DNA of 64,000 nucleotides from Nesterenkonia ebinurensis (GTDB lineage Bacteria > Actinomycetota > Actinomycetes > Actinomycetales > Micrococcaceae). Position numbers and translations under genes: made by a program. The notes beneath the pieces are model-generated. The model did no database searches, had not been told where the DNA came from, and worked only from the letters and a program-made list of their open reading frames with translations. The DNA is taken from positions 1 to 64,000 of the forward strand of contig NZ_VWNF01000011.1 of assembly GCF_008711175.1 (NCBI RefSeq), read 5' to 3'. Below, piece by piece: positions 1,463 to 53,449 of the stretch. Every line of letters begins with the position of its first letter. The first letter of the stretch is position 1.

Positions 1463-4448
1463 GAGGAGGACATGAGCACACCAGATTGCGGTCGCCGTGG
1501 GCGCCGTCGATCCGGCTCACCGGCGGGAAGTACTTATCCGGCCCGAACCCGGCCCCGTGCAGACCTGGCGCTGGGAAGGCGGCCTGCTGACGGGTGTAAG
1601 CCCGATCCCAGTCATCGGCAACCAACACCGCAGCTGGGTGCGGAGCGTGCTTCAGAGGGGAGTCGGCGGCGTCGCACTCTCCGTCGATCACCTGCTGGAT
1701 CTCAGCGTGGACGGCGATCATCGCCTCGATGAACCGCTCGATCTCCGCCAGGTCCTCAGACTCAGTCGGCTCCACCATCAGGGTTCCGGCCACCGGGAAG
1801 GCCAGAGTGGGGGCGTGGAAGCCGTAGTCGATCAGCCGCTTGCACACATCCTCGGCGGTGATGCCGCTGGCCTTGGTCAGCTCGCGCAGGTCCAGGATGC
1901 ACTCATGTGCCACCAGCCCAGATTCCCCCGTGTAGAGGGTGGGGTAGTAGTCGCGCAGCCGGTGGGCGATGTAGTTGGCGCTCAGCAGGGCGTGGGCAGT
2001 GGCGCTGGTCAGTCCCTCGGTGCCCATCATGGCCAGGTAGGCCCAGCTGATCGGCAGTACCCCGGCCGATCCGTACGCGGTGGAGGTCACCGAGGCAGGC
2101 GTGTCAGACGACGACGCCCGATTGAGTCGAGCGGAGACCGCAGCTTGCGCCGAGTCTCCCGAGGCGCTTGAGGAGCGCCAGCGAAGCGACGCCGCGGCCG
2201 GACTTCCAGGCAGGAACGGCACCAGGTGCTCGGCCGCTGCTACCGGCCCGACGCCGGGACCGCCGCCGCCGTGCGGAATGCAGAAGGTCTTATGCAGGTT
2301 CAGGTGGCTGACATCGCCGCCGAACTCGCCGGGCTGGGCCAGACCCACCAGGGCGTTGAGGTTAGCGCCGTCGATGTAGACTTGGCCCCCGGCGTCATGG
2401 ATCTTCTTGCAGACCTCGCGGACATCGGCTTCGTAGACCCCGTGGGTGGAGGGGTAGGTGATCATGATCGCGGCGATCCGGTCGGGGTGAGTCTCGATCT
2501 TGGCATCCAGATCGTCCAGATCGATGGTGCCGTCCGCTGCGGTGGCCACCACGGCTACCTGCAGTCCGGCCAGCACCGCGGAAGAGGCGTTGGTGCCGTG
2601 GGCCGAGGCGGGGATCAGGCAGATGTCCCGAGCGGCGTCGTCATTGGCCAGGTGGTACTGGCGGATGGCCAGCAGCCCTGCGTACTCCCCCTGGGATCCG
2701 GCGTTGGGCTGGATGGAGACCCCTGCGTAACCGGTGACCTCAGCCAATCTGGTCTCCAGGTCGACGATCAGGTTCCGCCATCCGGCGGTCTGATGCTCCG
2801 GGGCGTATGGGTGGATGCCGGCGAACTCGGGCCATGAGATGGCTTCCATCTCGGTGGCGGCGTTGAGCTTCATGGTGCAGGAGCCCAGTGGGATCATGGT
2901 GCGGTCCAGGGCCAGGTCGCGGTCGGCGAGCTTGCGCAGGTAGCGCATCATCTGGGTCTCAGAGCGGATGGAGTGGAACACCGGGTGGGTCATGTATTCG
3001 GACTCACGCACCAGCTCATCGGCGAAGGCATAGTCGCCCTCGAACTCCACGCCGTCGTAGAGCTCTTCGGCACCGCTGGGCTTCTCCACCAGGCCGAAGG
3101 CGTAGGCCAGCAGATACATCTCGCGGGTGGTGGTGGTCTCATCGGTGCTGACCCCGATGGTGTCCGGGGCCACCCGACGCAGGTTGATCCCGGCGCCCTC
3201 TGCCTTGGCCAGCACGATCTCAGCGGCCTCGGCATCCGACATGGTCACCTGCACGGTGTCGAAGAAGGAGGTGGCCACCAACTGGTGCCCGGCGCCGCGG
3301 AGCACTTCAGCCAGGGCGCGGGCCTGGGTGTGCACCCGGCGGGCGATCCGGGCCAGGCCCTCAGGGCCGTGGTAGACCCCGTACATGGAGGCGACCACGG
3401 CCAGCAGAGCCTGGGCGGTGCAGATATTGGAGGTGGCCTTCTCACGGCGGATGTGCTGTTCGCGGGTCTGCAGGGCCAGGCGGTAGCTGGGGCGGCCCTC
3501 AGCGTCTTTGGAGACTCCCACCAGGCGGCCGGGTAGCTGGCGCTGGAGCCCGGAGCGCACAGCCATGAATGCGGCATGCGGGCCACCGAAGAACAGTGGT
3601 ACGCCGAAACGCTGGGAACTGCCCACTGCGATATCCGCGCCCTGCTCCCCGGGTGGGGTGATCAGGGTCAGGGCGAGCAGATCGGCGGCCACAGCCACCA
3701 GTGCTCCGCGTTCTTTGGCTTCGGCGATGAGCTCCCGGTGGTCTACGACTGCACCGGAATTGCCCGGCTGCTGAAGGACCACACCACAGATCTCGCCCTC
3801 GGGGAGTCCGGCTGCAGCCAGATCCACGAACTGCAGCTCGATACCCACCGCCTCAGCCCGGCCGGTGATCACTGCGCGGGTCTGCGGGAAGATATCGGCG
3901 TCCACCACCACTGGGGCATCAGTGAGTTTCTTATTGGCTCGGCGCATCAGCAGGATCGCTTCGGCCACCGCGGAGGCCTCGTCGAGCAGGGAGGCGTTGG
4001 CCAGACCTAAGCCGGTGAGATCAGCCACCATGGTCTGGAAGTTCAGCAGAGCTTCCAGCCGACCCTGGCTGATCTCGGGCTGGTAGGGGGTGTAGGCGGT
4101 GTACCAGGCCGGGTTCTCCAGCACATTGCGCAGGATCACACTGGGGGTGTGGGTGCCGTAGAAACCCTGGCCGATCATCTGGGTCTTGACCTGATTCTGG
4201 TCCGCGTAGCGGCGCAGCGCCTCCATGGTCTCGGACTCGCTCAGTGCGGAGGGAAGGTTCAGCGGCTCGGACTGACGGATACCAGCCGGTACCGCGGCCT
4301 CCACCAGGGCCTCCAGGGAGTCATATCCCAGCGCCTCGAGCATGGTCTGGGAGGTCTCCGCGGTGGGGCCCATATGCCGGGCAGAGAAGCCGCCGGGAAT
4401 AGAATAATAGTCTGCAGCAGCGGCGCTGGAGGTTCCAGAGAGAGTCAT
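1440..4448 (-). CDS. gcvP: Glycine dehydrogenase (decarboxylating), P protein
   Basis: At 1002 residues this is slightly long for the single-chain P protein (about 950). It uses pyridoxal phosphate to decarboxylate glycine and load the aminomethyl group onto GcvH. Family landmarks include ARHMGP near the start, GSCTMKLN in the middle, the PLP-lysine segment [17 protein letters not shown] near residue 717, and the C-terminal [13 protein letters not shown]. Between LVPFLPGSP and [15 protein letters not shown] (about residues 745-785) there is a Ser/Ala/Arg-rich stretch of about 35 residues not expected in the family; it corresponds to the repeat element at 2108-2197. The gene follows a tandem glycine riboswitch whose end lies about 35 bp before the ATG. 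The frame is intact, so the insertion is tolerated or recent. Confidence 0.96.
2108..2197. repeat. In-frame intragenic repeat element (copy in gcvP)
   Basis: On the plus strand this begins ACGACGACGCCCGATTGAG and ends with a block starting GGCGCTTGAGGAG and finishing GACGCCGCG. The element in the glycosyltransferase at 53127-53296 has the same start and the same end; the 34-bp end block matches at 29 of 34 positions. GGCGCT-TGAGG-AGCGCC is a small perfect hairpin inside it. The element is 90 bp, a multiple of three, and adds about 30 residues to GcvP without breaking the frame. It is read on the opposite strand from the glycosyltransferase copy. Confidence 0.75.
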
Positions 4449-4484
4449 AGGTCCACCTTACGGGCAGGGATGCTGAATGGTCAG

Positions 4485-4694
4485 TGCCCCTTACTCTGTA
4501 GCTGACCTGAGAGATTCACCGGAAGTCTCTTCCGGTTTGCACCTTGGGTGAGAGGAGGTCTGCCCTGCCTCTGCTTTCCAGAGTCGCCACCCTGCTGCGG
4601 TCCATCAGTGTGACCTGGCCTGAGAGATTCGGAGGGGTCTCCTTGCTCCTTCGGCGCCGGCTGCCTTGGGGGCTCTGCCGGACTCTCCCGCACC
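4485..4694 (-). ncRNA. Tandem glycine riboswitch
   Basis: The minus strand upstream of gcvP carries two consecutive glycine-aptamer cores. The first starts GCGGGAGAGTCCGGC and includes GCCGAAGGAGCAAGG and GAATCTCTCAGGCC. The second has ACTCTGG, CACCCAAGGTGCAAACC and GAATCTCTCAGGTC. Twin aptamers joined by a short linker are typical of gcv operons, where glycine binding usually turns expression on. About 35 bp separate the second aptamer from the gcvP start, so control of translation initiation or of a very short expression platform is possible. The boundaries given are approximate. Confidence 0.92.
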
Positions 4695-4745
4695 AGGGAC
4701 GTGGCCTATATTCAATTGTCACCATCATCCCACAAATACGCCTGG

Positions 4746-4774
4746 AGGCCGGACCCTATGACAGGATCCGGCCT
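4746..4774. terminator. Hairpin between the pnp and gcv transcription units
   Basis: AGGCCGGA (4746-4753) and TCCGGCCT (4767-4774) form an 8-bp perfect stem. It lies downstream of the pnp stop and just upstream of the riboswitch, so it probably ends pnp transcripts. The T-tract is weak, so the mechanism is uncertain. Confidence 0.45.
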
Positions 4775-4850
4775 CGGCACTGCTCGTTCCAGCGGCGCGC
4801 CTGTCGCGCTGGCCTCTCGGCCGGCTTACACCGGCCATCACGCCCAAAGT

Positions 4851-4866
4851 AGGAGCTGAAGCTCCT
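4851..4866 (-). terminator. Short hairpin downstream of pnp
   Basis: AGGAGCT-GA-AGCTCCT forms a 7-bp stem 17 bp after the pnp stop codon; on the minus strand it is followed by ACTTTGG. It could be an intrinsic terminator or a 3' protecting structure. Confidence 0.45.
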
Positions 4867-4882
4867 CATACAGTGGAAATGA

Positions 4883-7147
4883 TCACACGTCCACGGGCTC
4901 GTTGACCTGATTGACGCTCTGCTTGTCGTTGCCGCTATCAGCATCCTCGTCCACCACCGGCACCAGGGACAGCTTGCCGCGGTCGTCGATCTTGTTGATC
5001 TCCACCTGCAGCTTCTGGCCCACGCCGAGCACGTCTTCGACGTCGTTGACCCGCTTACCCTCGTTGAGCTTGCGCAGCTCGGAGATGTGCAGCAGGCCGT
5101 CCTTGCCGGGGGTCAGGCTGATGAAGGCTCCGAAGCTGGTCAGCTTCACCACAGTGCCCAGGTAGCGCTCACCCACCTCAGGAACCTGCGGGTTGGCGAT
5201 CGCGTTGATCGCGGCCCGAGCAGCCTCGGCGGACTCACCGTCGGTGGCGCCGATCAGTACAGTGCCGTCGTCCTCGATGGAGATGTCAGCTCCGGTGTCC
5301 TCCTGGATCTGGTTGATCATCTTGCCCTTGGGACCGATGACCTCGCCGATCTTGTCCACAGGGATGGACACCGAAATGATCCGCGGTGCGGTAGCGGCCA
5401 TCTCGTCAGGGGTGTCGATGGCCGCGTTGAGCACGCCCAGGATGTGCAGCCGGGCCTCACGAGCCTGCTTCAGCGCTGCAGACAGCACGGAGGCCGGGAT
5501 ACCGTCCAGCTTGGTGTCCAGTTGGATGGCGGTGACGAACTCAGAGGTTCCGGCGACCTTGAAGTCCATATCGCCGAAAGCGTCCTCAGCGCCCAGGATG
5601 TCAGTCAGGGCGGCATAGCGGGTCTCGCCGTCCACCTCGTCGGAGACCAGACCCATGGCGATGCCTGCCACCGGGGCGCGCAGCGGCACACCGGCGTTGA
5701 GCAGGCTCAAGCTGGAGGCGCAGACCGAGCCCATGGAGGTGGACCCGTTGGAGCCCAGTGCCTCGGAGACCTGCCGGATGGCGTAGGGGAACTCCTCGCG
5801 GCTGGGCAGCACGGGCACCAGCGCCCGCTCGGCCAGTGCGCCGTGGCCGATCTCGCGGCGCTTGGGCGAACCCACCCGACCGGTCTCACCGGTGGAGTAG
5901 GGCGGGAAGTTGTAGTTGTGCATGTACCGCTTGGTGGTCTCCGGGGAGAGGCTGTCGATGGTCTGCTCCATCTTCAGCATGTTCAGTGTGGTGACACCCA
6001 TGATCTGGGTCTCACCGCGCTCGAAGATTGCCGAGCCGTGCACCCGGGGCAACACCTCGACCTCTGCGGTCAGCTGGCGGATATCAGCCAGGCCGCGGCC
6101 GTCGATGCGAACCTGGTCGCGCAGGATCCGCTGGCGGATGACCTGCTTGGTCACTGAGCTCAGCGCTTTGCCGATCTCGGACTCGCGGCCTTCGAACTCC
6201 TTACCCTCACCGGCGAGTTCCTCGACCAGCTGGGCCTTCAGCTCAGAGTCAGCGGACTCACGCTGCTGCTTATCGGCGATTTGGTAGATGTTGGCCAGCT
6301 TCTCCTCGGCCTTTGCCTTCACCGCCTGGAAGACGTCGTCTTCGTAGTCAGTGAAGATCGGTACTTCGATAGGCTCCTTGGCCGCGCGTGCGGCCAGGTC
6401 GGCCTGGGCCTGGCAGAGCACCTTGATGAATGGCTTGGCGGCCTCCAGACCCTCAGCCACTATCTCCTCAGTGGGGGCGGTCTTGCCCTGGTCCTTGATG
6501 AACTTCCAGGAGTCGTCGGTAGCCTCAGCCTCGACCATCATCACCGCGATGTCGTCGCCGACGATCCGGCCGGCCACCACCATGTCGAACACTGCGGTCT
6601 GCAGCTGGGAGTGCTTGGGGAAGGCCACCCACTGGGCGGAGCCGCCGTCGTCGATCAGCGCCACGCGCACACCGCCGATGGGTCCGGAGAAAGGCAGCCC
6701 GGAGAGCTGGGTGGACATGGAGGCACCGTTGATGGCCACCACGTCGTAGAGGTCGTCCGGGTTGATGGACAGGATGGTCTCCACCACCTGAACCTCGTTG
6801 CGGATGCCCTTCTTGAAGGCAGGGCGCAGCGGGCGGTCAATCAGCCGGCAGGCCAGGATCGCATCGGTGGTGGGGCGGCCCTCGCGGCGAAAGAAGCTGC
6901 CGGGGATGCGGCCGGCGGCGTACATCCGCTCCTCCACGTCCACGGTCAGCGGGAAGAAGTCGAAGCCCTCCCGCGGGGACTTGCCCACGGTGGTGGCCGA
7001 GAGGATAGTGGTCTCCTCGTCCAGGGTGATCAGTGCTGACCCGGCGGCCTGCTTTGCCAGCCGGCCGGTCTCGAATCGGATGGTGGATGTGCCGTACTTG
7101 CCGTTGTCGATCACGGCTTCGGCGTAGTGAACCTCAGGTCCCTGCAT
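4883..7147 (-). CDS. pnp: Polyribonucleotide nucleotidyltransferase (PNPase)
   Basis: The 754-residue product is a phosphorolytic 3'-5' exoribonuclease of RNA decay. Two RNase PH domains (about residues 10-150 and 320-460), a KH domain ([20 protein letters not shown]) and a C-terminal S1 domain starting about residue 660 ([20 protein letters not shown]) are all present. The frame is open upstream to 7264. The ATG at 7147 gives the actinobacterial N-terminus [16 protein letters not shown] and has AAAGGA about 11 bases upstream. It follows rpsO in the conserved rpsO-pnp order. A 350-bp spacer containing strong hairpins suggests pnp can be uncoupled from rpsO, as in other bacteria. Confidence 0.97.
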
Positions 7148-7345
7148 GGGGAGGGGTTTCCTTTCATAGTGTGACTTGCATTGCACAGCGCAACACAGCC
7201 CACGAACCTGGAAACGAATGCGAGGCGGTCTTCGATCGAAGCCCACGGGCGCGGAGGTCTTCACGCACTCCCGTAAGCCACTACCGAGGACCTGACCTTG
7301 CTGATCGGTCGGCCCCTGGCTGTGTCAGCTGCTACTAGTGTGACA

Positions 7346-7384
7346 CACAAATGGGACGTCCCCTAAGGGGCCGCCCCATTTGTG
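7346..7384. terminator. Long near-perfect hairpin between rpsO and pnp
   Basis: CACAAATGGG (7346-7355) pairs with CCCATTTGTG (7375-7384), with a further CCCC/GGGG pairing inside. It may attenuate readthrough from rpsO into pnp or be an RNase III cleavage site of the kind known in the E. coli rpsO-pnp spacer; the latter is by analogy only. A second small hairpin, GGCCGCG-TTGC-CGCGGCC, lies at 7459-7476, directly after rpsO. The rest of the 7148-7500 spacer shows no gene. Confidence 0.6.
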
Positions 7385-7500
7385 GCGCTTATGGCGTGCC
7401 TGACTGCACACGCGCCAGTGCTGGTCCTGTCGGTGCGCACAGGTCGCGCACGCCTATCGGCCGCGTTGCCGCGGCCTTCACGCCTAAAGGGCGATGGGCC

Positions 7501-7767
7501 TCAGCGAATGCCGAGGCGCTTCTTCAGCTCACGGAAACGCTCGATGTCCTTGCGCTCCAGGTACTTGAGAAGACGACGGCGCCGACCCACCAGGATCATC
7601 AAACCACGGCGGGTGTGGTGATCCTGCTTGTGCTCCTTGAGGTGCTCAGTCAGGTCGCTGATCCGGCGGGACAGCACCGCAATCTGCACCTCGGGGGAAC
7701 CGGTGTCGCCCTCATGGGTGGCGTACTCTTCGATGATCTGCTGCTTGACAGCGGGATCCAAAGCCAT
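7501..7767 (-). CDS. rpsO: 30S ribosomal protein S15
   Basis: The 88-residue product has the S15 hallmarks [34 protein letters not shown] and [12 protein letters not shown]15 binds 16S rRNA early in 30S assembly. The ATG at 7767 is preceded by TAGGAG at 8-base spacing; the longer open frame to 7806 has no family support. It precedes pnp. In many actinobacteria it directly follows ribF; here a 3-kb block (methyltransferase, NTF2-like, LysR) separates them. Confidence 0.97.
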
Positions 7768-7842
7768 GGAAATGCTCCTAGATGTTGTGCCGCGTTCAAA
7801 AAACACGTGCCAGCCACCGCGGACTGCAGCATGGCAACCCGT

Positions 7843-8805: not shown

Positions 8806-9011
8806 AGCTACCTCTCGGGCAGAAGTACGCATTAAGCAAGGACTAAATGCGGCCACGATTTTGTCAATATACATCCTAAGTGTTCCATGTCACATTATCA
8901 GTGGGTGGCCGGAACCTACAGAACACCAGCCGGCATCGCCCAATGCACGATTGTTCAGCTCAACACCCCTCCCGCCCAGCCGGGAGGCACGCTCACCCAA
9001 GGAGCACCACC
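8806..9011. promoter_or_regulatory. Divergent control region between the LysR and NTF2-like genes
   Basis: This 206-bp stretch is visibly richer in A+T than its surroundings around 8855-8905 (for example GTCAATATACATCC and GTCACATTATCAG), as expected for divergent promoters. I could not assign a specific LysR box. A strong ribosome-binding site (AAGGAG) ends the region before 9012. Confidence 0.45.
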
Positions 9012-11746: not shown

Positions 11747-12331
11747 TTAGCTTCTGTTGAGGCGATGGCGGAACAGCCAGAACAGCCCGATGAACGGCAG
11801 TACGAGCGGGATATAGCCATAGTCGCGGCCGAAGAAGCCCCAGACTGTGGCCACCTCGAACAGCTCAGGCTGCAGCAAAGTCCAGGTGCCCACGCCGATC
11901 ACTCCGGCCATCTCGATCAGCACGGCAACCAGCGCCACCTTCCAGGCCGCAGCGGAGGTGCGGGCCAGTGCCAGTGTGGCCAGGATATAGACCGCCGCAG
12001 CGAAGGCTGAAAGGCTCAGCGCCAACGGTGCGTCAGCAAACTGGACCTTCTCCGCCTGCGGGAAGGGCATGATCTGGTAGAAGGCCCGGGCGAAGGCGCT
12101 GACCGCGAAGATCCCATAGGCTGTGATGATCAGCATCCCCAGCCCCCGGTTGCGCGGGGTCGTTTGGGCGGTCCCCGGTGCGGCAGCCGAGAAGCCGGCG
12201 CCAGTCCCTGACGTGGTCCGCGCAGATTCTTCGGAATCTGCGCTGTGGCCTGACGCCAGTGACCCCCCGCTCTTCGTTCGGCTCAATCGGGCGTCGTCGT
12301 TCTCTGCTCGGCTCACAGTGCGCTTCCCCAC
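11747..12331 (-). CDS. Four-helix membrane protein with an inserted repeat near its N-terminus
   Basis: The 194-residue product has a polar N-terminal region of about 60 residues, then four hydrophobic segments (starting near residues 63, 100, 128 and 165) and a short basic tail. I do not recognise the family, though small membrane proteins at this spot between truB and ribF are common in Micrococcaceae. Residues 10-17 (NDDARLSR) are encoded by the ACGACGACGCCCGATTGAG repeat start, and further along the region holds a perfect palindrome, GCGCAGATTC-CG-AAGAATCTGCGC-like, at about 12221-12245. Its start overlaps the upstream gene by 19 bp, which indicates translational coupling. The N-terminal extension may be repeat-derived. 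Confidence 0.7.
   Translation of the reverse strand: MGKRTVSRAENDDARLSRTKSGGSLASGHSADSEESARTTSGTGAGFSAAAPGTAQTTPRNRGLGMLIITAYGIFAVSAFARAFYQIMPFPQAEKVQFADAPLALSLSAFAAAVYILATLALARTSAAAWKVALVAVLIEMAGVIGVGTWTLLQPELFEVATVWGFFGRDYGYIPLVLPFIGLFWLFRHRLNRS
12221..12300. repeat. Shorter relative of the intragenic repeat element (in membrane protein gene)
   Basis: On the minus strand from 12300 it reads ACGACGACGCCCGATTGAGC, the same 5' end as the gcvP copy (identical over 19 bases). It diverges after GAGCCGAACGAAGAGC. Near 12221-12245 a perfect palindrome, GCGCAGATTC around a short centre with GAATCTGCGC, follows. The shared GGCGCTTGAGGAG end block is not found. It lies near the start codon of the membrane-protein gene at 11747-12331. 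Confidence 0.6.
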
Positions 12332-13906: not shown

Positions 13907-13930
13907 CTAGTCCTCGTCCTCTCCGGTGCT

Positions 13931-13996
13931 GAGTGCATAGTTTGTGCAGTAGTTCTACCGTGAAACCCGCCAAAATGCTGCACAGATCACGCACTC
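13931..13996. repeat. 66-bp palindromic repeat, copy 2
   Basis: The arms GAGTGCATAGTTTGTGCAG and CTGCACAGATCACGCACTC pair with three mismatches around a 28-bp centre. It is in the rbfA-truB spacer. The total length is identical to the other four copies although the centre has diverged. Confidence 0.88.
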
Positions 13997-14024
13997 AAAG
14001 ATTGGTTCGGGGGTGGGCGCAGGG

Positions 14025-28195: not shown

Positions 28196-28227
28196 TGCTC
28201 ACTCGCCACGCTGCCCCTCATTCAACT

Positions 28228-28293
28228 GAGTGCATGATTTGTGCAGCTTTTTCAGCTTCAAAAGCCCCAAACTGCTGCACAAATCATGCACTC
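28228..28293. repeat. 66-bp palindromic repeat, copy 3
   Basis: The arms GAGTGCATGATTTGTGCAG and CTGCACAAATCATGCACTC are perfectly complementary over 19 bp. The 28-bp centre contains GCTTTT...AAAAGC, which can form an inner stem. It ends 17 bp from the 3' end of the DUF559 gene and is most like copy 4 on that gene's other side. Confidence 0.92.
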
Positions 28294-28310
28294 AGCGCCG
28301 GGACTGGGTC

Positions 28311-29273: not shown

Positions 29274-29458
29274 GTCACCATTTCACGATGAACTGATTCC
29301 ACTTTGTGCACAGACCCCGCCAGCTGTGGAATACCCGGCGTGTCCGATTGGCGCCAAGCACACCTGGGGAAAACTCTAGGCCTATCTCTGACCTAGCGCT
29401 GTGTGAGCGCCGCTGTCGCTGCGAGCTTGTGGAGCCTCGGCCACCCCACCCCTTCGCC

Positions 29459-29524
29459 GAGTGCATGATTTGTGCAACGTTTGCGGCTTCAAAAGCCTTA
29501 AACTACTGCACGGATCATGCACTC
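29459..29524. repeat. 66-bp palindromic repeat, copy 4
   Basis: The arms are GAGTGCATGATTTGTGCAA and CTGCACGGATCATGCACTC, with a few mismatches. The centre shares GCTTCAAAAGCC and TTAAACT-type positions with copy 3, making these two the most similar pair. It lies 185 bp upstream of the DUF559 gene start. Confidence 0.9.
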
Positions 29525-29556
29525 AAGAAATGAAATGCTGGAATTGAGCAGTCGCC

Positions 29557-32938: not shown

Positions 32939-32981
32939 CGCTCGGAGACAGGTGTCAGCCTATCCTCACTGCACTGTTGCT

Positions 32982-33047
32982 GAGTGCATGATCTGTGCAG
33001 TAATTTGAGGATTCTGAGGTCGAAAACACTGCACAAATCACGCACTC
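32982..33047. repeat. 66-bp palindromic repeat, copy 5
   Basis: The arms GAGTGCATGATCTGTGCAG and CTGCACAAATCACGCACTC pair with two mismatches (one a G-T type) around a 28-bp centre. It lies between the convergent rseP and DUF1648 genes. The second half of the window has no copy that I could find. Confidence 0.9.
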
Positions 33048-33062
33048 GGCGGAGATCCTGAG

Positions 33063-33617
33063 TCAACGAGCGCGGAAGCAGCGGATGATGCCCACCACGC
33101 AGACCGCCAACAGCAGAGCGGCACCCACCGGAATCAACCAGCCCAGGCCCCAACCGAGCCATATGGATGCCGAGCCGAAGACAGACACGGCCACAGCTGC
33201 CGTGCTCTGCACCATCAGCTGCTGGCCTGTTCGGTAGGCCCGCTGAGCATTCTCTGCGGTGATCATGTACGGGTAGTTGAACCAGTGTGGTGTGAAGCTG
33301 ATCCAGGCCATGGCCAGCGCCATCAGCGTCATACCGCCGGTCACCCACAGGGAGGTCCACGGCGAGCCGTAGCGGGTGGCCTCGCCGATGAAGTCGAAGT
33401 GCACCGGTATCTGGTCCGGCATCTCCGGGATACGCAAGGCGATGAGCACGGTCAGCCCGATAGTAGTGAGCGCACTGGTCAGGAGCAGAAACAGGTGCAG
33501 CGGATCCATGGTGAAATCCGGCTTGGGCCGCGGATCTCCGTAAGCTTGGCGGTAGAGCCGGTCGGCCTTCGACTCAACCTGAGTATCTGCCTGCTGCTCT
33601 GGACGCTCTTCACTCAT
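33063..33617 (-). CDS. DUF1648-type membrane protein
   Basis: The 184-residue product has a polar N-terminus of about 40 residues and four membrane segments. Between the first two lies PEMPDQIPVHFDFIGEATRYGSP, close to the DUF1648 pattern (IPVHFN..G) found in SdpI-like and regulator-associated membrane proteins. It is 35 bp downstream of the ArsR-type regulator on the same strand, so the two may be one transcript. The function is unknown; SdpI itself is a bacteriocin immunity protein, but similarity here is limited to the N-terminal domain. Confidence 0.78.
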   Translation of the reverse strand: MSEERPEQQADTQVESKADRLYRQAYGDPRPKPDFTMDPLHLFLLLTSALTTIGLTVLIALRIPEMPDQIPVHFDFIGEATRYGSPWTSLWVTGGMTLMALAMAWISFTPHWFNYPYMITAENAQRAYRTGQQLMVQSTAAVAVSVFGSASIWLGWGLGWLIPVGAALLLAVCVVGIIRCFRAR

Positions 33618-45999: not shown

Positions 46000-46605
46000 T
46001 TTCCGCTCTCCGCCGATCGTCTGGGGAACTCTCGGATTCCCTTGTGTGGGGCTGATGCAGGCGATGACGATACCGGCGACTACGAGAACCACGGGGATGG
46101 AAATGGCGAGGATCCAGCTGAGCCCCACAACTTGGCGTATGGCCATGATGATGCCGCCGATGGACATCATGGGGGCCATCACCAGCATTGTTGATGCTTA
46201 TCATCGCTAGCATCTGGACTTGCTGGACGTCGTTGGTGTTGCGGGTGATCAGCGACCCGGCGCCGAAGCTGGAAACCTCCCGTTCGGAGAACGTCGGTAA
46301 CACGGGAGAAGATGTCGTTACGCAGGTCACGGCCCACACTCATGGCGGCGTGAGCGGCGTAGAAGGTGGCTACGACAGCTGCGAGGATCTGCAGCAGCGC
46401 CACGCCAAGCATCCACGCTCCGGTGCGCAAGATGTAAGGGGCGTCGCCATGTGCTACACCCTCATCGATGATGGAGGCGTTCAGGGTGGGTAGGACCAGA
46501 GCGGCCAGAGCTGAGGCGAACTAGGAAGTCCAGTACCCCAATCAAAAGGCCAATATCGCCGCAGATAGCGACTCAGAAGACGCAGAAGCACGAGGGAAAT
46601 ACAAG
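46000..46605 (-). pseudogene. ABC-type multidrug exporter, N-terminal membrane domain, frameshifted and truncated
   Basis: Reading the minus strand from about 46605 down and switching frames gives consecutive pieces of the membrane domain of an ABC exporter: VLLRLLSRYLRRYWP, ALVLPTLNASIIDEGVAHGD, RTGAWMLGVALLQILAAVVA, HAAMSVGRDLRNDIFSRV, SEREVSSFGAGSLITRNTND and VQQVQMLAMISI, then MLVMAPMMSIGGIIMAIRQV. Each is in the right order for the family, but at least three frame changes and an in-frame stop are needed. Nothing of the second half of the membrane domain or the ATPase domain follows. It is a clear pseudogene. Confidence 0.75.
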
Positions 46606-46704
46606 CACGCCGGTTATGGCACCGCAAGGGTTAGGACCAAAGACCATTCTGAAGGATGACATGGGCTCCGAATATGTTGCCCTGTGGCCGGGTGAAGCTA
46701 GCGT

Positions 46705-47451
46705 CTATGTAGTTGGCCGACGCCACACCGAGACATGCGAGGTGCTCTCGCCGCTGAATGGTTGCTTCTGCCAGTCTGCAAACCGCACCTCGAACTCTAG
46801 GTCCGCAAGCCGAGCCATAAGATCGAGTTCCGAGGGCCACACGTAACGGAAGTTATGCGGCATATAGCGGTACGACCCGTCTTCCTTTCGCAGGTAGTGG
46901 TGCGAGATCGCACGCTGAGTAACGAGGTCATAGGTGTCAAACCCGAGGTGATCAACCGAGACGTCGAAGGGTATCGCCTGTTGGCCTGGAGGCAGCCGGC
47001 GCAATGCTGGCACACCGACTTCGACCACGAACCGGCCTCCTGGGACAAGGTGGCGAGCGGCGTTGCGGAAACACTCCACCTGCGCATCCTGCGTGAAGAG
47101 ATTCCCAATTGTGTTGAACACGAGATATACCAGCGTGAACTCTCCCTCCACGCGCGTCGTCGCCATGTCTCCAATGACAACGGGAATCTCTGTTGTTTTC
47201 TGTCTTAGTCGTGTAGCCATGGCTTCGGAATACTCGATTCCAGAGACCTCTACACCCCGGGCATGCAGGGGAAGTGCAACTCGTCCTGTTCCGATCGCGA
47301 ACTCTAGTGCGCGACCATCAGCCGCTAAGTGAGAAAGGAATGACGTTGTGTTGTCCAGTAGTTCTGGCGCGAACATGGGGCTATCTGGATTGTCGTAACC
47401 CTCGGCCTGCATCTCGGTCCACAGATCACTGGGGACCCCGTCTGTCCTCAT
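46705..47451 (-). CDS. Class I SAM-dependent methyltransferase
   Basis: The 248-residue product has RALEFAIGTGRVALPLHARGVEVSGIEYSEAM (SAM-binding motif I and acidic loop), VVIGDMATTRVEGEFTLVYLVFNTIGNL and ARHLVPGGRFVVEVGVPAL, typical of Methyltransf_25/11 proteins. The substrate is unknown. Its DNA is visibly lower in GC than the flanking core genes, suggesting transfer. It is intact, next to the ABC-exporter pseudogene and divergent from the AarF-like gene. Confidence 0.87.
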   Translation of the reverse strand: MRTDGVPSDLWTEMQAEGYDNPDSPMFAPELLDNTTSFLSHLAADGRALEFAIGTGRVALPLHARGVEVSGIEYSEAMATRLRQKTTEIPVVIGDMATTRVEGEFTLVYLVFNTIGNLFTQDAQVECFRNAARHLVPGGRFVVEVGVPALRRLPPGQQAIPFDVSVDHLGFDTYDLVTQRAISHHYLRKEDGSYRYMPHNFRYVWPSELDLMARLADLEFEVRFADWQKQPFSGESTSHVSVWRRPTT

Positions 47452-47590
47452 CTCTTCAGGCTACCGCGTCATGAGCGCTCTCCCCTATGATTCCTGCTCC
47501 CGACCGCTGACCCATGGCACCATGCGCGTCTATTATGGACCAGAGGGGTTCAGCAACCTACCTATGGGATCGAAACGTTAGAGGGTCTTT

Positions 47591-49342
47591 ATGCACAACG
47601 CTAGTGCGCTGCTCACACTTACCGAACATCGTAAGCGTTTCCGCGAGGTGATCAGTGTTCTCGCCACGTATGGTCTCGCCGATACTGTCAGCAAAGATGT
47701 GGTGAACTCTCTGGAGCCGCTTCTTCGTGGGCGGCTGAAGTTATCTGATCCCGCTGTTGTAGATAAGTCACTCGGAGAGCTTCTGCGAGGGGCCATGATG
47801 GAGTTGGGAACGGCGTGGATCAAGCTGGGTCAGATGCTCAGTCTCCGCCCCGATGTGGTGGGCCCCACTGTTGCTGCTGAGCTGAGCCAACTGGATTCAT
47901 CAGTCACCGCCGATGAAGCCTCAGTGGTCATCGGGACCGTTGAGAACGAACTTGGCGCTCCAGTAAATGACCTCTTTGCCAGCTTCTCCCCAGAACCTCT
48001 GGCCTCTGCCTCAGTAGCGCAGGTTCATAGCGCCACACTTTCTGATGGCACTGAGGTGGTCGTCAAAGTAATCCACCACGGTGCCGATGTTCGGGCACGG
48101 GAAGACTTGGAGATCATCACTGCTCTGGCCCATTTGTGGCAGCATAACGATCCAGGTGCTCAACAGTACCGCCCGGTCCAGATTGCTCAAGAGTTCTCGA
48201 CGATGCTCAGAGACGCGGTGGACATGAGGGTGGAGTTGGCAAACTTGCGGACTTTTCGAGACAAGCTGTCTCATCACGAGGATCTCTATGTGCCCCAGCC
48301 ATATGAGGAACTGTGCAGCGGACGTGTCCTGACGATGACCAGAGTTAAGGGCACACCCCTTCGTGATGCCAAGGCCATTCAGGGCAGCGGCTGGAAGGTA
48401 GAGGACTTAACCAACAAGGTCGTCTCTGTGTACTTCGAGATGATCTTTGAACACGGGACGTTCCACGCGGACCCGCAGCCTGGGAATCTCATGGTGATGC
48501 CTGGCCGTAAGCTTGCCCTTCTCGACTTTGGCGACATTGGCCGCTTCACTCCGGCGCGGCGGGAACAGATGGAATGGATTGTTCTGGCACTGGGCTTTCA
48601 GGATGCCGAAGCATTTGCCAATATCCTGATTGAAATCGCCAACCCGCCGCCCTCAACGGACATTGCTCAGCTACGCGCCGACCTGGGTGGCTGGTTCGAC
48701 CGCCATATTTCTGTCGGTGTCGGACAGATCGACATCCCTGCTCTGGTCAATCAGGCTATGGATCTTCTCCATCACTATGGGCTGGTTCTCCCGGGTGACT
48801 TTATGCTGCTGGTCCGGGTGCTGCTTCAGCTGCAGGGATTGAGCAGTGCCGTAGGGGTGGGTCTCAACATCGAAGAGCTGATGAGCCCCTACGTTCGGCG
48901 CATTATGCTCTCCTATCTGAATCCGCGCCGAATCGCCCGTGAATTTGCCTCCAGCGGTCTCAGGTGGAGGCGGCTGGTCAAGAGTCTTCCGGATGATCTC
49001 TCGGAACTCATCAAGGGTGTCAGGCAGGGCACGATGACGGTGAACTTCAGTATTCACGATCCTGACCGCCTCACCGATAATGTGGTGGACGGGCTCATCA
49101 GCGCTGCTGCCTTGCTATCTTCTGCGCAGCTGATCTCTCGGGAGACTCCGCCGAAGGTCGCTGGGATCTCCGTACCGGGTGCTGTCGTGGCCGGGATAGG
49201 GGCAGCTACGTGGATCCGGGCGGCGAATCGCCGTCGTGAAGGATTCTCTTTGGTGTCTTCGGTACGAAATGTGGCCAAACTCGGGGGGAGGGCCTCGAAG
49301 AAGCGCCGCGAGGCGCTCAAGGATCACACAGCTGGTGACTGA
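47591..49342 (+). CDS. AarF/ABC1/UbiB-family atypical kinase
   Basis: The 583-residue product has the UbiB-family hallmarks: the KxGQ motif in AWIKLGQMLSLRPD (about residue 78), an Ala-rich loop EPLASASVAQVHSATL, the ATP lysine in VVVKVIH, the catalytic HADPQPGN (about residue 293) and the metal-binding LLDFGDIGR. The C-terminus has one or two hydrophobic segments, suggesting membrane attachment. Family members act in quinone or lipid metabolism as ATPases/kinases; the role here is not known. Its GC content is lower than in the core genes. It lies between a divergent methyltransferase and the tRNA-Met terminator. Confidence 0.9.
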   Translation: MHNASALLTLTEHRKRFREVISVLATYGLADTVSKDVVNSLEPLLRGRLKLSDPAVVDKSLGELLRGAMMELGTAWIKLGQMLSLRPDVVGPTVAAELSQLDSSVTADEASVVIGTVENELGAPVNDLFASFSPEPLASASVAQVHSATLSDGTEVVVKVIHHGADVRAREDLEIITALAHLWQHNDPGAQQYRPVQIAQEFSTMLRDAVDMRVELANLRTFRDKLSHHEDLYVPQPYEELCSGRVLTMTRVKGTPLRDAKAIQGSGWKVEDLTNKVVSVYFEMIFEHGTFHADPQPGNLMVMPGRKLALLDFGDIGRFTPARREQMEWIVLALGFQDAEAFANILIEIANPPPSTDIAQLRADLGGWFDRHISVGVGQIDIPALVNQAMDLLHHYGLVLPGDFMLLVRVLLQLQGLSSAVGVGLNIEELMSPYVRRIMLSYLNPRRIAREFASSGLRWRRLVKSLPDDLSELIKGVRQGTMTVNFSIHDPDRLTDNVVDGLISAAALLSSAQLISRETPPKVAGISVPGAVVAGIGAATWIRAANRRREGFSLVSSVRNVAKLGGRASKKRREALKDHTAGD

Positions 49343-49485
49343 GCCGCTGTTTGATAGGTCCAACCGGACAGGATGTGAACCTGCGAGCCCTTGCGGCCAG
49401 CTATCAGCAGCCCCACAACGGTCGCCAGCTCGGCGGATGATTTCTCCAAAGCTTGCACTGGGTAGCTGCAGTTAGCAGAGATAGA

Positions 49486-49526
49486 AAAGGTCGCCGATCT
49501 AGGAGAAGTCCTAGTCAGCGACCTTT
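49486..49526 (-). terminator. Terminator downstream of tRNA-Met
   Basis: AAAGGTCGC (49486-49494) pairs with GCGACCTTT (49518-49526), with a further CTAGGA/TCCTAG pairing inside. On the minus strand the stem ends CCTTTTCTATC, so it fits termination of the tRNA transcript. It may also serve the AarF-like gene on the plus strand. Confidence 0.75.
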
Positions 49527-49566
49527 CTCTGTAGGGAGTGCGGTGTCTTCTCTGTAGGGAGTGCGG
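49525..49566. repeat. Direct repeat copying the 3' end of tRNA-Met
   Basis: The 19-bp sequence TTCTCTGTAGGGAGTGCGG occurs at 49525-49543 and again at 49548-49566. The second copy includes the tRNA acceptor stem 3' strand and adjoining bases. Duplicated tRNA 3' ends are typical scars of site-specific integration, although a 23-bp offset also fits simple slippage. Confidence 0.75.
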
Positions 49567-49628
49567 GACTTGAACCCGCGACCCAAGGATTATGAGTCCT
49601 CTGCTCTAACCAACTGAGCTAACTCCCC
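49555..49628 (-). tRNA. tRNA-Met (CAT anticodon)
   Basis: The minus strand folds as a tRNA: acceptor GGGGAGT with ACTCCCT, D arm TAGCTCAGTTGGTTAGAGCA, anticodon loop CTCATAA giving CAT, and T arm CGGGTTCAAGTCCCG. The first acceptor pair is G-U. CCA is not encoded. With CAT it could be elongator tRNA-Met or, if the C is modified, tRNA-Ile; the body looks like elongator Met and not an initiator, which would have three G-C pairs in the anticodon stem. Confidence 0.93.
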
Positions 49629-49654
49629 GAGCGCGCTGAGCACGTCGCTCCATC

Positions 49655-50758
49655 CTAACTGAGGGTGGCGAAGACCTGGGCAGCCTCCTCCCAGGTCGGC
49701 AGAGTACGACGACGCCGCAGTGCCGTTTCCCGCAGCTCGGCCCGGTCCTCGGGTTCCTCCAGAAAGCGGCGTAGGCGGGCAGTCCAGGCAGCCGATTCCT
49801 GTGGATCCAACGGGATGCCGGCCTCACCAGCGGCCTCCTCCGCTCCGGTGCCCGCAGACACGAAGGCCGGCACCCCATGGGCGCAGGCCTCGGTAACCAC
49901 CATCCCGTAGGTCTCCACCAGGGAGGGCAGCAGGAGCAGGTCTGCCTCCGCCCACAGCGCGCCCATCTGCTCCGAGTCCAGCACGCCACGGTGCTCCACG
50001 CGGCCAGGCAGTCTCCCCTGAAGATCGCGGAGAATCTGTTGCCCGAACTCTGAGTCGGCACCCGGTCCGGCCAGCACCAGCTGCCAGTCCAGGTCCAATA
50101 GCGGCTCCAGTGCCTGGCCGAGCAAAGTATGGTTTTTCACCGGGTTAAGGGTGGCTGCTGCCACAAAGTACACCTCCTTTTCATGAAGACACCGGGTTAT
50201 ATGGCGGTGTAGATGAGAAAACCCGGTGTAGTTGTCGCGGAGCGCAGTGCGATTCGGACTCGGGTCGGGTGAGCGAGGGGTTACCTCGACGCTGCTTCCG
50301 GGGTGGGCCACTGCTATATTCTGCCTCCGGTAGCGGCGCCGCAGCTCGCCAGCGCCCCATCGACTGACCGTGACGACATGGTCAGCCTCCAGGACCGCCC
50401 ACTTCTCACGGGTCACCGCATCCGGATCACCGACACCTTCAGCGGCGAGCGCCGCGGCTAGCGGAAGGTGTATCAACAGTACGGTTTGGCCCGACAGGAG
50501 CGATTCCTCGAAGAGCTCAGGATGTGCGGAGCCGATCAACCCGTCAACTACCAGCAGTGCTGGGGCCAGACGAGCCCGAGCCTGCTCCACGGTCCTCTGC
50601 CCTGATCCATTCCTGAAGCGCTCTGGAGGAAGACGCAGCGTCTCCACCGTCACCCCCCGGGCCGCCAGCGCGGCACGCAACTGCTGGTTGTACCGCAACC
50701 CGCCGCTGATGGTGCCCAGCCGGGGCTCCACCCACAGCACCGGTCCTGCGCTGCTCAC
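49655..50758 (-). CDS. GT4-like glycosyltransferase with an inserted palindrome
   Basis: The 367-residue product begins LWVEPRLGTISGGLRYNQQL (N-terminal acceptor domain) and has FVAAATLNPVKNHTLLGQAL, LVLAGPGADSEFGQQI and the donor-site motif PSLVETYGMVVTEACAHGVPAFVS. Between VEVTPRSPDPSPN and VYFVAAATL is an extra segment of about 25 residues (RDNYTGFSHLHRHITRCLHE) encoded by the palindrome at 50189-50229. The start is GTG at 50758, overlapping the stop of the pterin-synthase-like gene (GTGA). The three genes dehydrogenase, pterin synthase and glycosyltransferase form one operon, which suggests glycosylation of a pterin-like product. Confidence 0.87.
   Translation of the reverse strand: MSSAGPVLWVEPRLGTISGGLRYNQQLRAALAARGVTVETLRLPPERFRNGSGQRTVEQARARLAPALLVVDGLIGSAHPELFEESLLSGQTVLLIHLPLAAALAAEGVGDPDAVTREKWAVLEADHVVTVSRWGAGELRRRYRRQNIAVAHPGSSVEVTPRSPDPSPNRTALRDNYTGFSHLHRHITRCLHEKEVYFVAAATLNPVKNHTLLGQALEPLLDLDWQLVLAGPGADSEFGQQILRDLQGRLPGRVEHRGVLDSEQMGALWAEADLLLLPSLVETYGMVVTEACAHGVPAFVSAGTGAEEAAGEAGIPLDPQESAAWTARLRRFLEEPEDRAELRETALRRRRTLPTWEEAAQVFATLS
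50189..50229. repeat. Palindrome inserted in a glycosyltransferase gene
   Basis: ACACCGGGTT (50189-50198) and AACCCGGTGT (50220-50229) are perfectly complementary around a 21-bp AT-richer centre. The structure coincides with a protein segment absent from the family. The sequence is unrelated to the 66-bp palindromes and to the element in gcvP. Confidence 0.7.
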
Positions 50759-51159
50759 GGCTCCAGGTCGATCCGCACGGAGGCTCGGGCCCGTGGATGC
50801 TCCTCCGCGGCCACCTCCAGGGCCAGAAGCCCGTGGCCCTCCGGCAGCGCCTCAACAAGCTGGAGTCCCACATACTGACAGACCACCTCGGTGGTGGAGA
50901 TCTTCCCCGCAAAGTCCGGATGCTCGTCCAGATTCTGATAGCGCAGCGGCTGAAGCACCCCGGCCAGCAGCTCGGAGGCCAGCCCGATGTCCATCACCAC
51001 CCCGTGCTCGTCCAGGCCACGGCGCTCGAAGGTGGCGGTGATCGCCAGGGTGGCGCCGTGCAGCTGCTGGGCAGGCCCGAAGAACTCTCCGGGAAGGGAG
51101 TGGGCGATCATCACGTGGTCATCCACGCTCAGCCGGAACACCGGTATCTGCTCAACCAT
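50755..51159 (-). CDS. 6-pyruvoyl-tetrahydropterin synthase / 6-carboxytetrahydropterin synthase-like protein
   Basis: The 134-residue product has the PTPS/QueD layout: IAHSLPGEFFGPAQQLHGATLAITATF, which carries His residues fitting the zinc site, GVVMDIGLASELLAGVLQPLRYQNLDEHPDF, ISTTEVVCQYVGLQL and a C-terminal strand with Glu. QueD usually has a Cys in the H-x-C catalytic area; none is evident there, so the reaction may differ from the queuosine pathway. The ATG at 51159 has GAGGAG at 8-base spacing; a TTG at 51162 is possible. It lies between the dehydrogenase and a glycosyltransferase, and no other queuosine genes are nearby. Confidence 0.83.
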   Translation of the reverse strand: MVEQIPVFRLSVDDHVMIAHSLPGEFFGPAQQLHGATLAITATFERRGLDEHGVVMDIGLASELLAGVLQPLRYQNLDEHPDFAGKISTTEVVCQYVGLQLVEALPEGHGLLALEVAAEEHPRARASVRIDLEP

Positions 51160-51170
51160 CAAAAAGCTCC

Positions 51171-52148
51171 TCAGTAGGTGACAACATGCAGGATCTCATC
51201 CCGGGTCCAGACCTTGCCACAGGCGAAGTCCTCCATCACTGCGGGCAGCTGCTCAAGCGGCGAGTGCCCGGTCACCAGCGCATCGAACCGCTCATCGAGC
51301 AGGTTCAGGGCCGCGGTCAGCCGCTCCCGGCGGGTACGACGCAGCCGCTTGGGCGCAGCCACCTGGCCCACCTGGGTGGAGACCAGGCTCAGCCGGCGAG
51401 CGTGGAAGTCCGCGCCCAGCGGCACCCGGGGCTGCTGGGCGCCGTACCAGGACATCTCCACCACGACGCCGTCGTCACCGGTGATCTCCAGGGCCCGGGC
51501 CAGCCCGGGCTCACTGGCCGAGGTGTGGAGCACGGCATCGTTATCCCCCTGCGCCTTCTCAGGGCCGACCGCATCGAGTCCCAGCTGCTCAGCAATTGCG
51601 CGTCTGCCAGAGTCGACTTCCACCACCTGGAGCCGAGAAGGGGTGAGCCGCTGGACCAACAGCGCGGTCACCAGACCCACCAGACCCGCACCCACCACCG
51701 CGATCCGGTCGCCCAGGCTGGACCGGGACTCCCACACGGCGTTGAGGCCGACCTCAGCGATCCCGGCCAGCAGGGCACGCTCACTGGACATGCCCTCCGG
51801 CACCAGGTGGCAGTCCCGGGCAGCGGCGACCACATGGCTGCGGTGCCCGGAGAGGGTGAAGACCCGCTGGCCGAGCAGCTCCTGGGGACCGCGGATCACC
51901 GTGCCCACATTGAGATAGCCGTGGCTGACCGGGCAGGGCAGCTCGCCCAGCTGCTGCGGGGCTGCCATCAGATCCGCCACCGCCTCAGGGACCTCCCCGC
52001 GGTAGACCAGGGTTTCGGTGCCCGGGGAGATCGCTGAGCACTCTGTCTCGATGAGCATCTCCTCTGGCCCCGGCTCCGGCAGGGCGGTATGCCGCACCCG
52101 GGCAGAGCCAGGTGCCTCAATCCAGAACTCGCGGCCAGGCGGCGTCAT
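51171..52148 (-). CDS. Zinc-binding-dehydrogenase-like MDR oxidoreductase
   Basis: The 325-residue product fits the medium-chain dehydrogenase/reductase superfamily: CSAISPGTETLVYRGEVP in the GroES-like domain and GDRIAVVGAGLVGLVTALLVQRL as the NAD(P)-binding motif, then VVEVDSGRRAIAEQLGLDAV. The structural-zinc Cys cluster is absent and catalytic zinc ligands are not obvious. It resembles dehydrogenases found next to PTPS-like and glycosyltransferase genes. It is the first gene of the three-gene minus-strand operon and divergent from another glycosyltransferase, with about 55 bp between them. Confidence 0.86.
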   Translation of the reverse strand: MTPPGREFWIEAPGSARVRHTALPEPGPEEMLIETECSAISPGTETLVYRGEVPEAVADLMAAPQQLGELPCPVSHGYLNVGTVIRGPQELLGQRVFTLSGHRSHVVAAARDCHLVPEGMSSERALLAGIAEVGLNAVWESRSSLGDRIAVVGAGLVGLVTALLVQRLTPSRLQVVEVDSGRRAIAEQLGLDAVGPEKAQGDNDAVLHTSASEPGLARALEITGDDGVVVEMSWYGAQQPRVPLGADFHARRLSLVSTQVGQVAAPKRLRRTRRERLTAALNLLDERFDALVTGHSPLEQLPAVMEDFACGKVWTRDEILHVVTY

Positions 52149-52204
52149 AAGCTATATCATCCCAGGTCAGGCCGTACAGAAGCTGGAAGTGAAAGACTGT
52201 GCCC

Positions 52205-53449
52205 ATGAGGCTCTTCGTCGACTGCCGGTATGTGCGCACCCGGGTGCATGACGGCATCTCCCGATACACGGCCTCCCTGGTGGCAGCCGCCGCATCCAAG
52301 GCAGAGATCACCATGCTGATCAGCGACCCGGGGCAGCTGAACCTGCTGCCTGACCTGCCCCATCTGAGGATCAGCTCACCCACCGGGCCGGCCGAGCCGT
52401 TCGTAGCCCGGCAGCTGAACCGGCACTCCCCCGACGTGGTCTTCTCGCCCATGCAGACTATGGGCAGCCTGGGCCGGCGCTACCGGCTGATCCTCACCCT
52501 GCACGACCTCATCTACTACCAGCACCGCACCCCGCCGAAGAACCTCCCCGCCCCTGTCCGGCTGGGTTGGCGGGCCTACCACCTCAGCTACACCCCGCAG
52601 CGGGTGGCACTGAACCGGGCCGACGCGGTGGCCACGGTCTCGCAGACCACCGCGGATCTGATCAGCAGGCACCGGCTCACCAGGCGACCGGTGCATCTGG
52701 TTCCCAATGCTCCCCAGGCGGTGGCCTCCCCGCGCGACCCCGGCAACCGGCCGACCAAGGAGCTGGTCTACATGGGCTCCTTCATGGAGTACAAGAACGT
52801 ATCGGGGCTGATCGCCGGGCTGAACCTGCTGCCGGACTACCGACTGCACCTGTGCTCTCCGGTGGAGCCGGCCCAGCGGGCGCAGCTGAGCGGGCTCGCC
52901 GAGCGGCCCGGCCAGCTGGTATTCCACCACGGGATCAGCGAGCAGGACTACCACCGGCTGCTGCGCCGGGCCACCGCCCTGGTGACCCTGTCCAAGGCTG
53001 AAGGGTTCTGCCTGCCGGTGGTGGAGGCGCTGAGCCACGGCACCCCGGTGATCACCTCTGATCTGCCCATCTTCCGGGAGGTCGCCGGGAATCTCTCCAA
53101 CACCCCGGCAGCCCAACTGGTGAACAACGACGACGCCCGATTTAACCAAGTGAAGAACCGCCCTTCCCCGAGCTCCTCCTCCGAGAGACGACTGAGCCGA
53201 GTGGAATGCGGCGCTTGCGGCGCAATTTCGGCAGCGACTGAGGATTGCCCCCGATGCGGGCAGGCGCTTGAGGAGGGTCAACGAAGGGATGCCGCGAGAC
53301 TGGCTGAGGCCGTCATCCGCCTGGAGAGCCCGGGAACTTTTGCTGAGGCCAGCAGGGCCGCCCACCGACGCAGCCTGGCCTACTCCTGGGAGAACTCCGC
53401 TGATCGGCTGGTCAGCTTGGCGGGCTCACTTCACCAGTCTTCGAACTGA
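52205..53449 (+). CDS. GT4-like glycosyltransferase carrying an in-frame repeat element
   Basis: The product (414 residues from the ATG at 52205; GTG at 52199 is possible) begins MRLFVDCRYVRTRVHDGISRY and has LILTLHDLIYYQ, VATVSQTTADLI, LVYMGSFMEYKNVSGLI and the donor-site region SKAEGFCLPVVEALSHGTPVITSD. After LVNNDDAR comes a segment of about 57 residues not expected in the family (RPSPSSSSERRLSRVECGAC, GAISAATEDCPRCGQALEE), then the fold resumes with DAARLAEAVIRLES. The insert includes a CxxC...CxxC pair resembling a zinc ribbon. Its 3' end overlaps the convergent glycosyltransferase by 19 bp. Confidence 0.88.
   Translation: MRLFVDCRYVRTRVHDGISRYTASLVAAAASKAEITMLISDPGQLNLLPDLPHLRISSPTGPAEPFVARQLNRHSPDVVFSPMQTMGSLGRRYRLILTLHDLIYYQHRTPPKNLPAPVRLGWRAYHLSYTPQRVALNRADAVATVSQTTADLISRHRLTRRPVHLVPNAPQAVASPRDPGNRPTKELVYMGSFMEYKNVSGLIAGLNLLPDYRLHLCSPVEPAQRAQLSGLAERPGQLVFHHGISEQDYHRLLRRATALVTLSKAEGFCLPVVEALSHGTPVITSDLPIFREVAGNLSNTPAAQLVNNDDARFNQVKNRPSPSSSSERRLSRVECGACGAISAATEDCPRCGQALEEGQRRDAARLAEAVIRLESPGTFAEASRAAHRRSLAYSWENSADRLVSLAGSLHQSSN
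53127..53296. repeat. In-frame intragenic repeat element (copy in glycosyltransferase)
   Basis: It begins ACGACGACGCCCGATTTAA and ends with GGCGCTTGAGGAGGGTCA and GGGATGCCGCG, matching the ends of the gcvP element (2108-2197). The interior has a second match, CGACTGAGCCGAGTGGA (from 53189), to the gcvP segment CGATTGAGTCGAGCGGA. The extra length against the gcvP copy lies between the first ACGACGACGCC and 53189. The insertion keeps the reading frame. The protein resumes with DAAR, echoing DDAR at the start, which suggests a short target duplication. Confidence 0.75.

Follow-up and report, generated by a model that had tools for sequence, protein, structure and literature searches.

Short palindromic repeats that lie in frame within unrelated conserved genes have been described in Rickettsia. 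As presented in sections of two papers, the Rickettsia palindromic elements (RPEs) are 105–146 or about 150 nt long, occur in many copies and are also found outside genes (PMC10969869, PMC2229807). Here we analysed a 64,000-nt stretch of the genome of Nesterenkonia ebinurensis (contig NZ_VWNF01000011.1, positions 1 to 64,000; hereafter the window), in which gcvP and a glycosyltransferase gene each contain an additional segment, and both segments belong to one repeat family. A preliminary description of the window had compared these segments to RPEs in behaviour, and the comparison held for the two traits concerned, palindromic structure and in-frame position in unrelated protein genes. The Nesterenkonia repeat is, like an RPE, short, palindromic and multicopy, and it occurs both outside genes and, in frame, within unrelated ones. 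It is unlike RPEs in coming from another phylum, in its shorter 70-nt core, in its preference for GACGCC, in usually netting 25 codons and in having a zinc-ribbon-like form, as judged from the published descriptions. In its behaviour the repeat is like RPEs; it is a distinct family, for which kinship to RPEs is not claimed.

Two other kinds of repeat come close. Repetitive extragenic palindromes (REPs) with CGTC or GTAG tags are, in the part of the source available, 20–40 bp long, tagged at one end and mostly intergenic, with some copies in genes; the CGTC group has stems of 8–9 bp and lacks a dedicated transposase (PMC3733652). The word Actinobacteria is absent from that paper, though for M. 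tuberculosis it lists REP-like repeats that lack conserved tags. The Nesterenkonia repeat is likewise a small palindrome located between and inside genes, but its hairpin measures about 55 nt, is bordered by GATTGA on either side and is followed by a second variable hairpin; an unpaired CGTC tag beside a single 8–9 bp stem was not found in its consensus and structure. Miniature inverted-repeat transposable elements (MITEs) are, according to a section of another paper, non-autonomous and present in high copy number, and some are fused in frame with genes (PMC10969869). These properties are shared by the Nesterenkonia repeat, which differs in having neither clear terminal inverted repeats, its ends CGATTGAGCCGA and (reverse complement) CGCTTCGCTCAC having 5 of 12 bases equal by eye, nor a supported target duplication. 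Among the search results listed from an open-access library, which lacks most subscription journals, no description of the family was found. We consider it quite probable that both segments are copies of a non-autonomous mobile repeat which forms a hairpin and prefers GACGCC-like sites for insertion, its peptide being a passenger.

Copies of the repeat in the window and in the genome

The copies in the window, with their flanks and host genes, are the following (other genomes are designated by G numbers).

1440..4448, minus strand: gcvP, glycine dehydrogenase, host gene (Pfam GDC-P and GcvP2_C; solved relatives 4lgl and 6i33)
2114..2118, plus strand: left flanking pentamer ACGCC of the gcvP copy
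2119..2188, plus strand: alpha-form repeat unit, 70 nt, within gcvP and antisense to the gene (model match 2110–2175, E 3.9e-19)
2189..2193, plus strand: right flanking pentamer ACGCC of the gcvP copy (empty G003 site: single ACGCT)
52199..53449, plus strand: GT4-type glycosyltransferase, host gene (Pfam Glycos_transf_1)
53133..53137, plus strand: left flanking pentamer ACGCC of the glycosyltransferase copy
53138..53288, plus strand: Z-form composite repeat unit, 151 nt, in the GT4-type glycosyltransferase gene, sense (model matches 53180–53245, E 2.1e-5, and 53129–53199, E 0.05)
53189..53272, plus strand: zinc-ribbon-like unit RLSRVECGACGAISAATEDCPRCGQALE, 84 nt (one of 17 aligned units; 18–19 genome matches)
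53289..53293, plus strand: right flanking pentamer ATGCC of the glycosyltransferase copy
11747..12331, minus strand: host open reading frame (ORF) of the third copy, 194 amino acids (no Pfam family at E<=1)
12218..12298, minus strand: third, diverged copy, near the ORF start (model match E 0.0015; classed uncertain, frame +0)

The segments were found where the preliminary description had placed them in the window, and the end sequence that it had noted in a third gene, taken to encode a membrane protein, from 12300 downwards on the minus strand, turned out to belong to a diverged family member, with a model match at 12218–12298 and with 33 nt that are 88% complementary to the gcvP copy. The gcvP and glycosyltransferase elements share the proposed 34-bp end block (29 of 34 positions equal), and they are read on opposite strands relative to their genes, both elements being on the plus strand, gcvP on the minus and the glycosyltransferase gene on the plus strand. 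The end block had two matches in the window against 0.00 expected, and ACGACGACGCCCGATTNAG, with up to three mismatches, had three against 0.09 expected, a number reached in 0 of 100 shuffles.

Used as a DNA query, the gcvP element had 42 matches at E<=10 in its own genome, and a query with the latter half of the glycosyltransferase element yielded 32 at the same cut-off, 15 of them (self included) below 1e-5. A covariance model, R1, was built from 28 aligned copies and run on the genome, yielding 134 matches at E<=1. The 126 matches with E<0.01 were kept and merged within 300 nt into 116 loci; the eight dropped (E 0.02–0.9) included the 5' half of the glycosyltransferase copy. Since the best 150 candidates were scored in the own-genome and genus searches, 126 matches may be a lower bound. 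Further copies are therefore present beyond the window, and this copy number refuted chance similarity or a conserved protein segment as the source of the shared sequence. The shuffle controls and the orthologues that lack the segment speak against such a source as well, the natural length variation of the gcvP loop being the one point in its favour.

The core consists of CGATTGAGCCGAG, a hairpin, CCGAGGCGATTGAG and a second hairpin of variable sequence, and three forms of the repeat were told apart by eye. The alpha form, to which the gcvP copy belongs, has the tail GAGCGTGAGCGAAGCG and a 70-nt core (CGATTGAG...AAGCG), usually with an ACGCC-like pentamer at either side; the beta form has an additional outer stem in several copies; and the Z form has a further core-like unit, coding for some 28 residues that include CxxC and CPxCG. 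In the 37 copies with a recognised alpha-type tail, the distance from CGATTGAG to AAGCG was 70 nt in 23, 71 nt in six (in which, we think, the start was mostly placed one base early), 66–68 nt in two and, measured from the second unit, 99–101 nt in six Z copies. An all-against-all comparison of the 126 contexts (about 800 nt on each side) revealed no larger parent element, sharing staying near the repeat with 14 short off-element matches. Nor was a phage or plasmid carrier found: a blastn search with the alpha consensus, a tblastn search with a single Z peptide and a search of viral contigs for one exact pattern were all without a match.

The repeat forms a hairpin with strong covariation in 42 held-out copies that were outside the model and not of the Z form. 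Compensatory changes occurred in 16 of 18 pairs, and 82.1% of the cells were paired against 72.1% after shuffling, a level that 0 of 500 shuffles reached; slid partners gave at most 45.6%. The stem is broken by symmetric GATTGA/GATTGA and GA/GA internal loops, which may be read as tandem G-A pairs.

Empty orthologous sites and distribution

In order to compare the gcvP site, 29 loci were fetched (our own gene among them), of which 26 were comparable and three were not. The gcvP of G013 (92% identical) contains the element; that of G003 (91% identical) is without it and exactly 25 amino acids shorter, the net surplus here being 25 codons. In seven other species the protein is 28 amino acids shorter at this site, and in 16 more distant species it is 8–19 amino acids shorter, the place being taken by another, unrelated loop. 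In comparison with solved P-proteins, too, the loop that holds the insert is variable, so that what is absent elsewhere is the repeat itself and not every loop. The proposal that the gcvP segment is absent from the family was thus right in that the repeat is missing from most orthologues, and has to be amended in that G013 carries it and distant species have other loops. A glycine riboswitch lies upstream of gcvP (4588–4700, minus strand).

Foldseek retrieved GT4-type relatives of the glycosyltransferase, and AlphaFold2 predicted a confident fold (mean predicted local distance difference test score, pLDDT, 88.9) with values of 57, 50, 55, 63 and 83 for the blocks of the insert. The best segment is 85% identical to N. 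alkaliphila, with respect to which the insert adds 52 amino acids at GACGAC|GACGCC. This piece is missing in 16 of the 17 other alignment rows (0–5 residues there), and the pannonica row ends before the site. The absence of this segment from its family was accordingly confirmed in the 16 orthologue rows that reach the site.

Comparisons with G013 extended these results to the rest of the genome. From the 1.6 Mb of G013 DNA fetched, collinear flanks were available for 38 of the 126 hits (about 35 loci), and our genome was 43–469 nt longer at 32 of them. The model had 13 hits in this part of G013, none of which fell in any of the 38 gaps, and the junction-level DNA alignments were too diverged for placing the element ends. 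At the protein level, 18 cases with both flanks were compared (identities 0.33–0.81), and 13 showed a surplus of 16 to 42 amino acids; it was exactly 25 in numbers 28, 35 and 57, which with gcvP against G003 makes four exact cases overall. The compared sites were mostly empty, orthologues not all carrying the segments, and this pattern of presence and absence suggests that the repeat is mobile.

In a search of 30 Nesterenkonia genomes (E<=1e-3), nine had matches: 121 in our genome, 35 in G013, 18 in G003, two each in G002 and G020, and one each in G007, G010, G015 and G021. The repeat is dense in three of the 30. Wider samples were searched with the best 13 candidates scored per genome, as in all searches of more than 40 genomes, so low-copy relatives may be missed. 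The family sample gave matches in nine of 395 genomes at E<=1e-4, including G264, whose match was rejected by eye; the order sample gave four of 396 at E<=1e-5 (our own genome, G412, G525 and G575), with related hairpins; and in the phylum sample our genome was the sole match among 396. The copies at L114 (G002) and L116 (G020) begin immediately at the 3' ends of genes for tRNA-Arg and tRNA-Leu, respectively, and a degraded tRNA-like stretch follows the copy at L116. At L333 and L336 (G412) and L335 (G525), from other Micrococcales families, related hairpins stand in tandem.

Reading frame, target and proposed mechanism

Positions relative to genes were assigned from codon usage, with a classifier trained on 16 ORFs of the window. 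Of the 116 loci, it placed 50 in frame within a gene and 46 not, and left 20 uncertain. When 1260 points were drawn at random from these regions as a control, 977 were called coding, compared with 55 of the 126 hits; copies are rarer in genes, which they avoid but which are far from closed to them. A Pfam match at E<=1e-5 was obtained for 43 of the 50 host ORFs. By their domains, they include RNA-related proteins (a tRNA 2-thiouridylase-like protein, which we take to be MnmA, TrmD, a class I tRNA synthetase, Rho and RNase E/G), metabolic enzymes (IMP dehydrogenase, citrate synthase, two biotin-dependent carboxylase subunits, a 2-oxoacid dehydrogenase E2 and GcvP), and signal peptidase II, ScpA and LigD. 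Many in-frame hosts are housekeeping genes, and the frames of rho, of an IMP dehydrogenase gene and of gcvP, among others, stay open despite the insert. By eye, 12 of the 43 elements lie within the listed Pfam stretch, the other 31 being outside the stretches shown or unplaceable.

In-frame loci were distributed over frames +0/-2/-0/-1/+1 as 34/8/4/3/1, and GACGCC occurs in the corresponding phases of the 16 window genes as 23/3/8/0/2. The favoured frame matches the codon phase of GACGCC in genes, and therefore the main bias needs no choice at the protein level. The plus strand of the element usually has one open frame (+0) and the minus strand mostly three; the missing stops in in-frame copies are partly a matter of definition. 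The 70-nt core was also found in copies that the classifier placed outside genes (8 of 23), so the divisibility of the net length by three seems to belong to the element itself.

Whether the alpha peptide is under selection was examined in 69 alpha-length (66-nt), non-Z copies, other loci being left out. The ratio of nonsynonymous to synonymous changes from the consensus was 194/82 (2.37) for frame +0 in genes, 183/82 (2.23) for copies not in genes and 157/69 (2.28) for copies in or near other frames. Purifying selection on the peptide was not seen, the ratios being alike in and out of frame, and the peptide looks like a passenger that is tolerated and not used. The suggestion that the elements are selected for frame neutrality is only half borne out: the usual net length in multiples of three is in line with it, but there was no sign of purifying selection on the alpha peptide, and target phase accounts for most of the frame bias. 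Target and length can explain the frame neutrality of the family, and the match in codon phase offers a simple, testable reason for it.

These results show that the repeat prefers GACGCC-like sites and that its commonest form brings a net 75 nt, made up of the 70-nt unit and a single 5-nt flank. This length is divisible by three, and the frame usual for the target in genes (GAC GCC, Asp-Ala) is free of stops. We propose that, given this net length and open frame, insertions in genes become hydrophilic stretches of about 25 residues. They would persist in proteins that can accommodate them, with the remaining insertions kept outside genes. Copies may arise via hairpin-intermediate transposition by an enzyme acting in trans, and the flanking pentamers may be a target duplication. 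If so, a lineage outside Rickettsia, a GC-rich actinobacterium, would be added to those in which palindromic repeats routinely enter genes in frame. Owing to its more than 100 copies, and to a sister genome without those compared, this bacterium is well suited to studying how repeats of this kind are mobilised, what makes proteins tolerant of them and whether new protein segments derive from them.

Several observations weigh against this proposal. Movement of the copies was not directly observed and is inferred from presence and absence. The Y1 transposase (PF01797, IS200/IS605, RAYT) was not found in G000 (our own genome, a draft that is 98.65% complete), G003 or G013, and the reverse transcriptase RVT_1 (PF00078) was not found in our own genome, other transposase families not having been searched; PF01797 is present in one of the 30 Nesterenkonia genomes, and PF00078 in G003 and G013. 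The gcvP copy has ACGCC on both flanks and one ACGCT at the empty G003 site, and a permutation test for a 5-nt target duplication in 37 copies gave 109 matches against 107.6 expected (p 0.40), leaving a true duplication unsupported. Our genome was not longer than G013 at six of the 38 compared hits; two of the 18 protein comparisons (numbers 94 and 95) lacked a net surplus, and five below 0.5 identity may involve paralogues. The length of the gcvP loop varies naturally anyway. In-frame status rests on codon statistics, and one of the 50 in-frame hosts, L154, matched Pfam NAD-GH, a family that presumably reflects a wrong-frame ORF. Finally, frames -2 and -0 hold eight and four loci against three and eight targets, and filtering at the protein level may therefore play some part as well, although these numbers are small.

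Alternative explanations and the Z form

The strong covariation of the stem and its symmetric GATTGA/GATTGA and GA/GA loops would also fit repeats that are structured RNAs (stabilisers of mRNA or terminators, for instance) maintained by selection acting on the RNA, with the in-frame copies as by-products. The same explanation would account for a beta-form sequence, typed as composite, that folds at z -2.85, and for a copy after the stop codon in G007 and G021, apparently orthologous, whose stems differ yet stay paired. However, a hairpin required for DNA transposition would yield equal covariation, the 50 of 116 loci called in frame lie within genes in either orientation, and none of the 38 compared sites is common to G013. 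No Rfam family was matched at 14 loci (E<=1), nor at the element in the window at the gathering cut-off. We regard selection on an RNA as an improbable origin of the family. At L118 (G021) and L119 (G007), about 1501–1566, apparently the same copy lies 3' of the stop codon in two species.

The Z form encodes the CxxC...CPxCG peptide in 18–19 copies. A 55-amino acid Z query (E<=0.01) gave 19 matches in our genome, 18 of them reaching the Cys part, six in G013, none in G003 and four weak ones in three other genomes. In seven in-frame units, as counted from aligned rows, cysteine is retained at 27 of 28 positions, against 30 of 40 in ten others, although one of these ten, number 66, may be in frame (classifier number 84); nonsynonymous/synonymous changes are 46/20 in the in-frame units and 116/32 in the others. 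Both differences would be expected of a mobile protein module whose zinc-ribbon-like peptide folds, binds metal and is kept as useful. Nevertheless, divergence is lower among the in-frame units, whose age may account for the Cys retention and the substitution ratio alike, and the Cys codons also lie within palindromes. Pfam Zn_ribbon_6 matched the Z unit at E 0.02, below the cut-off, PDB matches were weak too, and the AlphaFold2 insert had a pLDDT of 50–63, with 83 only at the junction with a helix. A useful module of this kind is, in our judgement, doubtful. We give as little credence to a combined possibility, in which a selfish codon-neutral repeat (by its length, target phase and open frame) would have evolved a form that spreads a compact zinc-binding module into unrelated proteins; if true, the mobile element with its Z form would be a domain-insertion machine.

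A second palindromic family, CTGAGTGCATGATTTGTGCAG with its inverted copy, was also observed in the window at 1282–1366, 13929–14013, 28226–28310, 29457–29541 and 32980–33064, with 59 matches in the genome, both strands counted.

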